39,492 bases of DNA, from IMG/VR virus record IMGVR_UViG_3300045922_000063, positions 1 to 39,492 of that record. One strand, given 5' to 3'. The notes under the pieces are model-generated. The model was not told where the DNA came from. It searched no databases and saw nothing but the letters and a program-made list of their open reading frames with translations. Position 1 is the stretch's first letter. Each line of letters opens with the position of its first letter. Position numbers and translations under genes: made by a program. This document shows positions 38,972-39,492 of this stretch, in pieces. Source of the stretch: a virus.

Positions 38972-39130
38972 GTGTTGTTGTGTGTTGTGGTAGTGTATGT
39001 GTTGGTGTGTTGTGGTGGTGTGATGCGTGTTGTAGTGTGACGTGTGTTGTGTGTTATAGTGTGTGTTGTTGTTGTTGTGTGTAGTGTGTTGTTGCGTTGT
39101 TGTAGTGTGTTGTGTGTTGTAGTATGGAGT
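38972..39130. repeat. G/T-rich cryptic simple-sequence tract
   Basis: About 160 bases in which the + strand is almost only G and T (units TGTTG, GTGTTGTG, TTGTAGTG), with very few A and C. It is the strand complement of the C/A-rich tracts at 39345-39491 and 1-70. No gene is credible here on either strand. Confidence 0.85.
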
Positions 39131-39249
39131 TATTTGCGGGGGTGGAGGGAATGTGATGGGAGGCGCCACTTTTGGCCTCTTTTAGCAACTATACCCCCTT
39201 GACAGGGGGTTGTGGACGTGGCATGTAAATAATAACACAACACACACAC

Positions 39250-39259
39250 GGGGGGGGGG
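39250..39259. repeat. G10 homopolymer run beside a short CA tract
   Basis: Ten G in a row directly after (AC)n. Such a run is prone to slippage and sequencing error, so the true length is uncertain. Confidence 0.8.
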
Positions 39260-39276
39260 TTTAGTGTGTTGTGTGT

Positions 39277-39331
39277 AGTATATAGTATATAGTATATAGT
39301 ATATAGTATATACTATATACTATATACTATA
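39277..39331. repeat. AGTATAT heptamer array forming a 44-bp perfect palindrome
   Basis: AGTATAT repeats at 39277-39304 run into their own inverse. Positions 39288-39309 and 39310-39331 are perfect 22-bp inverted arms with no loop. The element is nearly pure A/T and could extrude as a cruciform or open easily, as expected of a replication start or a hairpin end. Confidence 0.88.
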
Positions 39332-39344
39332 ACAATATAATAAT

Positions 39345-39394
39345 ACAACAACACAACACAACACAACACAACACAACACAACACAACACAACAC
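39345..39394. repeat. (ACAAC)n pentanucleotide array
   Basis: About nine to ten pentamers of the ACAAC/CACAA type, following an AT-rich spacer (AACAATATAATAAT) that adjoins the palindrome. Confidence 0.88.
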
Positions 39395-39408
39395 CCCTCA
39401 CAGTACAA

Positions 39409-39491
39409 CACACACACACACACACACACACACACACACACACACACACACACACACACACACACACACACACACACACACACACACACAC
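39409..39491. repeat. (CA)n dinucleotide microsatellite, right end
   Basis: About 41 uninterrupted CA units up to the penultimate base of the window. Joined to the left-end (AC)n tract it would make a microsatellite of about 150 bases or more. Confidence 0.95.
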
Positions 39492-39492
39492 C

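Follow-up and report, generated by a model that had tools for sequence, protein, structure and literature searches.

The simple-sequence zone at the right end of a 39,492-nucleotide viral DNA (the window, by which we mean this whole stretch) is probably the middle and right half of a non-coding, bidirectional early/late control region of ~1-1.1 kb whose spacers have been expanded by slippage. In relatives, the sequence is continuous across the join of the window's two ends, and conserved blocks (element A, a TTGACA core and the leader of gene 1) have lineage-specific repeats between them. The control region would separate a leftward early operon from a rightward late operon in a ~40 kb genome that is circular or circularly permuted, with element A driving leftward and the TTGACA core rightward transcription. 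Its spacers and leader would be constrained mainly in composition and would tolerate changes in length, and slipped-strand synthesis by the phage's PolA-type replicase, or by the host's, would keep growing and replacing short repeats there. We favor bidirectional control because the operons diverge, promoter-like hexamers lie on both strands and the blocks are fixed. We favor rebuilding by slippage because different units occupy homologous places, gap openings are more frequent and a G-run differs by one base.

The main ORFs of the window run rightward from 100 to 22431 and leftward from 22400 to 38163. This orientation bears out the initial annotation, which had placed the zone where leftward and rightward transcription diverge, and the same position between oppositely oriented operons is found in relatives. 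Terminase, portal, capsid and tail-type genes are read rightward, and the leftward set encodes, among other proteins, a UDG-exonuclease-PolA fusion polymerase, a DUF3987 primase/helicase-like protein, a RecD/Dda-like helicase, a dNMP kinase and Sak4; from this content we infer the labels "late" and "early", respectively. The polymerase (24040-26481, minus strand) has an N-terminal uracil-DNA-glycosylase-like domain fused to its exonuclease and PolA domains, and the C-terminal stretch of another early ORF (36410-36736, minus strand) matches the ribosomal protein L7/L12 C-terminal domain (Pfam E 1.3e-6). Possible operators, palindromes with the pattern TGCACA-N2/3-TGTGCA, lie upstream of leftward genes at 38622-38636 and 36796-36812, with similar ones in the relatives G002, G003 and G010. 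Megablast of window positions 1-20000 found no near relative in an annotated phage collection, and no capsid relatives were found in genome_contigs that could give a host or prophage context. The nearest genome plan is that of phage ctMlz233 (MW202489.1, Manatee Spring), which shares the gene order of the window at 28% identity in the DNA polymerase and 26% in the capsid; unlike that of the window, its divergent region is short and has neither microsatellites nor element A.

Table 1. Features of the zone and its surroundings in window coordinates.
Feature	Position	Strand	Basis or remark
Sister leftward promoter, TTGACA-N17-TATGTT	38212-38184	-	promoter scan
Leftward sigma70-like promoter, TTGACA-N17-TATGTG	38560-38588	-	read from sequence; first leftward (early) gene, start near 38512
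Element A, C7..CCC..ATCCCAAAAGGGGGG	38813-38843	-	family-wide conserved block
G/T-rich simple-sequence spacer (keto 0.91)	38972-39131	+	base count; homologous spacers in G002, G003, G010, L047
Conserved core: GA-rich block, GC-rich hairpin (~39158-39178), divergent promoter-like hexamers	39128-39240		alignment of four relatives
Leftward promoter-like site, TCCACA-N17-TATAGT (TATAAT in G002)	39188-39216	-	scan and alignment
Rightward promoter-like site, TTGACA-N19-TGTAAA	39199-39229	+	consensus match and alignment
CA stretch / G10 / GT stretch	39235-39275	+	11-bp CA/GT stem, G10 in loop
G10 run	39250-39259		
(TAGTATA)n palindrome	39276-39331	+	24-bp AU hairpin in RNA
(CACAA)n tract	~39346-39393	+	
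(AC)42, pure; left part of the tract where the contig is cut	39408-39491	+	
(AC)35; right part of the same cut tract	1-70	+	continuity from relatives
Leader end with AGGAG (89-93) and gene 1 (100-507), first rightward gene	71-507	+	

We confirmed the repeats that had been listed for the zone, namely a G/T-only-like tract, a G10 run, a palindrome, CACAA pentamers and a (CA)n tract continuing as (AC)n at position 1 (Table 1). G or T make up 145 of the 160 bases of the GT tract, the rest being 12 A and 3 C, and the (TAGTATA)n palindrome is an inverted repeat of 27+27 nt that is 96% complementary. When the 39.5 kb were scored by DUST in segments of 100 bases, the seven simplest segments all lay within the zone (scores 13.3 to 4.1), against a mean of 0.96 (sd 0.22) and a maximum of 3.8, inside one ORF, in the rest of the genome. 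Over 150 bases, the keto (G+T) fraction was ~0.90 for the GT tract and fell to ~0.02 for the CA tract, compared with 0.50 +/- 0.05 (maximum 0.67) outside the zone. A scan of ~2.9 million IMG/VR viral contigs for (AC)30 yielded only 11 stretches, which excludes chance as the origin of the long AC tract and agrees with the remark in the initial annotation that phages rarely keep such DNA. A published survey places bacterial viruses at about simulated background for short tandem repeats (PMC12699852). A further low-complexity stretch, CA-rich and then GT-rich, lies at 18751-18964 inside an ORF of 1391 aa, with a low-complexity peak in G002 at the corresponding distance from gene 1.

The window's ends almost certainly join within a single (CA)n tract, where the contig broke. 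Three close relatives (L021/G002, L020/G003 and L018/G001) cross the CA tract and continue into the same gene 1, which confirms the suggested joining of the ends; in the gene 1 search, these crossing relatives were 88-95% identical to window 100-507. Across the tract G002 reads ...CACTCCTCACAGTACAAC(AC)n TCCTCACTGCTGCAGTATAGGAGCACAACATG, and G003 and G001 are alike. The contig ends of G002 overlap exactly over 127 bp (a circular assembly) and those of G003 over 138 bp, with G11 set against G12; because of these overlaps, both genomes close as circles at other points. The contigs of the window, G001, G003 and L047 each break inside the zone at different places, a scatter that we attribute to the typical breaking of contigs by assemblers in simple sequence. 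The repeat zone would explain why contigs of these phages break here and look "linear", as does the window, an IMG/VR record classed as linear in which the exact length of the CA tract is doubtful.

We considered whether the zone could have arisen by faulty sequencing or assembly, or be satellite DNA of a eukaryote that became joined to a phage contig. The contig does end within the tract, its last base (C, in "...ACACC") is the sole base that breaks the AC repeat, and the length of the G-run differs between the two copies at the ends of G003. However, the zone recurs in several contigs from separate metagenome records, flanked by the same genes and interspersed with conserved blocks, and the tract led independently to a distant relative. 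We therefore rejected this very improbable explanation: relatives carry the same zone, and the doubt is confined to the exact tract length.

The initial annotation had proposed looking for the zone in related phage genomes, and that search recovered it between the same genes in several contigs, together with blocks shared across the family. Close relatives (87-95% genome identity) keep its order, which from left to right is leftward gene, element A, pyrimidine-rich stretch, GT tract, core with TTGACA, CA/G-run/GT, TA repeats, CACAA, CA and gene 1. The type of repeat is lineage-specific, with (GTT)12, a run of 36 bases, in G002 and (TGTTGTAGTG)7 in G003. The longest AC run measures 84 bases in the window, 54 in both G002 and G001, 34 in G003 and 0 in G010, from which the CA tract and the G-run are both absent. 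A terminase search extended the comparison to 80 relatives, down to ~42% identity. In the spacer between element A and gene 1, the most repetitive 80-mer exceeded 99% of the rest of the contig in 19/26 loci and all of it in 13/26, and the top strand was keto-rich in 24/26, these loci being related and so not independent. Spacer repeats of distant relatives were GT, GTAT, GTA, TA or ATGTGGTGT, according to lineage. One of the 11 matches of the blind (AC)30 scan, L055, is itself a distant relative (gene 1 ~40%, TerL 42% and portal 43% identical), and its (GT)31 sits in the short interval immediately before its gene 1, an independent tract at the same locus. By these comparisons, conservation applies to the region more strongly than to its sequence. 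A few pairs suggested that the spacer is more conserved than coding DNA, an idea that we dropped since, by sliding identity, the spacer is no more than equal to the backbone of these mosaic genomes. Another contig (L072:2160-2380) has a further simple-sequence zone ~2.4 kb upstream of gene 1, made up of several (GT)n runs and then G14, and the contigs L073, L075, L076 and L078 start in or immediately next to the homologous place.

Element A consists of a C-run, TTCCCAAAA and a G-run, with the consensus C-run N C-run ..AATTCC(C)AAAA..GGGG(G).TATA. The pattern matched 33/80 terminase relatives as well as the window, G003 and L047; there was no match in the other 47/80, many of which are too short to reach the zone, nor within the 422 upstream bases of the fragment L055. 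Each matching contig has one site, always on the plus strand upstream of gene 1 or TerL and nowhere else in the matching loci, at ~200-780 bases from gene 1. Read by eye on the minus strand, several distant relatives show AGGTGC-N18/19-TATAAT-ACCCCC or a near version of it, and the TATAAT-like hexamer (-10) is weak in the window clade. With this arrangement, element A may act as a leftward promoter. It could not be matched to a named element. A covarying hairpin looked convincing by eye and failed a permutation test, in which matched stems had 5.05 bp and mismatched pairs 5.18 (p = 0.78).

The rightward TTGACA of the core is invariant in 4/4 sequences of the close-clade alignment, the corresponding site of L088 reads TTGACA-N18-TATAAT, and no other word is as over-represented in the family's zones as CTTGACA (6/19 zones versus 0.2 expected from shuffles). 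These matches suggest that the core acts as a rightward promoter; the promoter calls are consensus matches, and the rightward spacing in the window clade is 19. RNA starting from the rightward site of the window is predicted to form two strong hairpins (z = -7.5), which are absent or reduced in G002 and G010, and for this reason we built no reading on them. The CA tract itself folds to nothing. Rfam families gave only sub-threshold matches in the zone, mostly to the AT palindrome, and a known RNA family was rejected because no score exceeded the gathering threshold. We also discarded an unstructured CA leader as a general aid to translation of gene 1, since G010 and distant relatives have no CA leader.

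Gap openings between relatives amount to 9/kb in the spacer versus 3.3/kb from gene 1 onward, a nearly threefold difference. To the left of element A they reach 11/kb, as many as in the spacer; frequent indels are thus not confined to the repeats. The initial annotation had offered a slippage-grown filler as one reading of the zone. Slippage fits, in that the repeats are lineage-specific expansions of the kind it gives, but mere filler does not, since blocks are conserved family-wide. A milder version, in which the repeats are neutral filler with spacing as their only function inside an otherwise functional intergenic region, would account for the free change of repeat identity and length between lineages and for the loss of the CA tract and G-run in G010. 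We consider it unlikely in view of the consistent keto strand bias and simple-sequence enrichment at one locus over the family and the conserved blocks on both sides.

Two other functions had been put forward for the zone. Packaging sites (pac or cos) often lie upstream of terminase genes, as does the zone, and element A is unique per genome. However, we found no clustering of contig ends at element A, as a pac or cos site would produce; the ends scatter relative to it, and close relatives have their contigs broken at various points, in simple sequence. A packaging start thus gained no positive evidence and seems decidedly improbable.

A replication origin is a possible but rather doubtful alternative, in which a promoter, an easily melting AT-rich palindrome and repeat-like binding sites would let two forks leave the zone; that the GT-rich strand would then be the leading-strand template on both sides of the core is an equally tentative proposal. 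Cumulative GC skew is lowest at 38970 in the window and close to the GT tract in G002, but gene orientation confounds the skew, the tracts themselves contribute part of it, and MW202489 has no such minimum. The AT-rich palindrome adjoins the promoter-like site, and near relatives conserve the region to about the same degree as the structural backbone. The best positive hint is a candidate origin in the spacer of L115/L117/L118, which holds two perfect-match DnaA boxes (TTATCCACA) together with a near-box in reverse orientation, at +90, +111 and +211 from element A, against ~0.03/kb elsewhere. These boxes occur in one clade only; the zone of the window contains none, and no initiator protein was recognised. 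An origin, as initially suggested, is therefore a possibility that these boxes and the confounded skew minimum leave unproven. The likeness to the T7 primary origin, which is a promoter plus an AT-rich stretch, lies in a promoter-like site beside AT-rich DNA and in the phage's polymerase being of the PolA type; the difference is that no T7-type RNA polymerase was recognised in the window phage.

Returning to the control region, it resembles the divergent early/late regions of tailed phages in being non-coding, between opposed operons and furnished with promoter-like sites, and differs from them in being filled with long microsatellites and anchored by the C-run/TTCCCAAAA/G-run block. We would class it as a phage divergent control region, a known kind, whose unusual trait is that microsatellites keep growing in it. 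In the open-access papers covered by our limited literature search, no phage family is described as having this trait. Bacterial contingency loci of the Haemophilus hifA/hifB type carry dinucleotide repeats in divergent promoters. Like them, the zone has short tandem repeats beside divergent promoters, here putative ones, and repeat length varies between close relatives; unlike theirs, its repeats sit in spacer and leader, not between -35 and -10. That the fast-mutating microsatellite is a tunable, contingency-type element within the family's master early/late switch strikes us as a long shot. If so, each infecting population would hold a spread of tract lengths setting the timing or strength of early relative to late expression, or of replication initiation. 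Long dinucleotide repeats are almost absent from phages and this family appears to regrow them repeatedly at one regulatory locus, offering a natural experiment on why such DNA is normally lost from phages and on whether tract length tunes a viral switch.

The DRT3 defence system makes poly(TG)/(CA) DNA (PMC13174585), a link to the zone that we judged a coincidence. In an unrelated 49.6 kb viral contig, (AC)54 directly follows an apparent start (ATGAACAAAATCC; L056:1012-1119), which would make a classical dinucleotide phase-variable gene. A 216 kb viral contig from an apparently unrelated phage carries TATATATATAG..ACAACACAACATC..(CA)52 at L057:13379-13483, an arrangement resembling that of the window.
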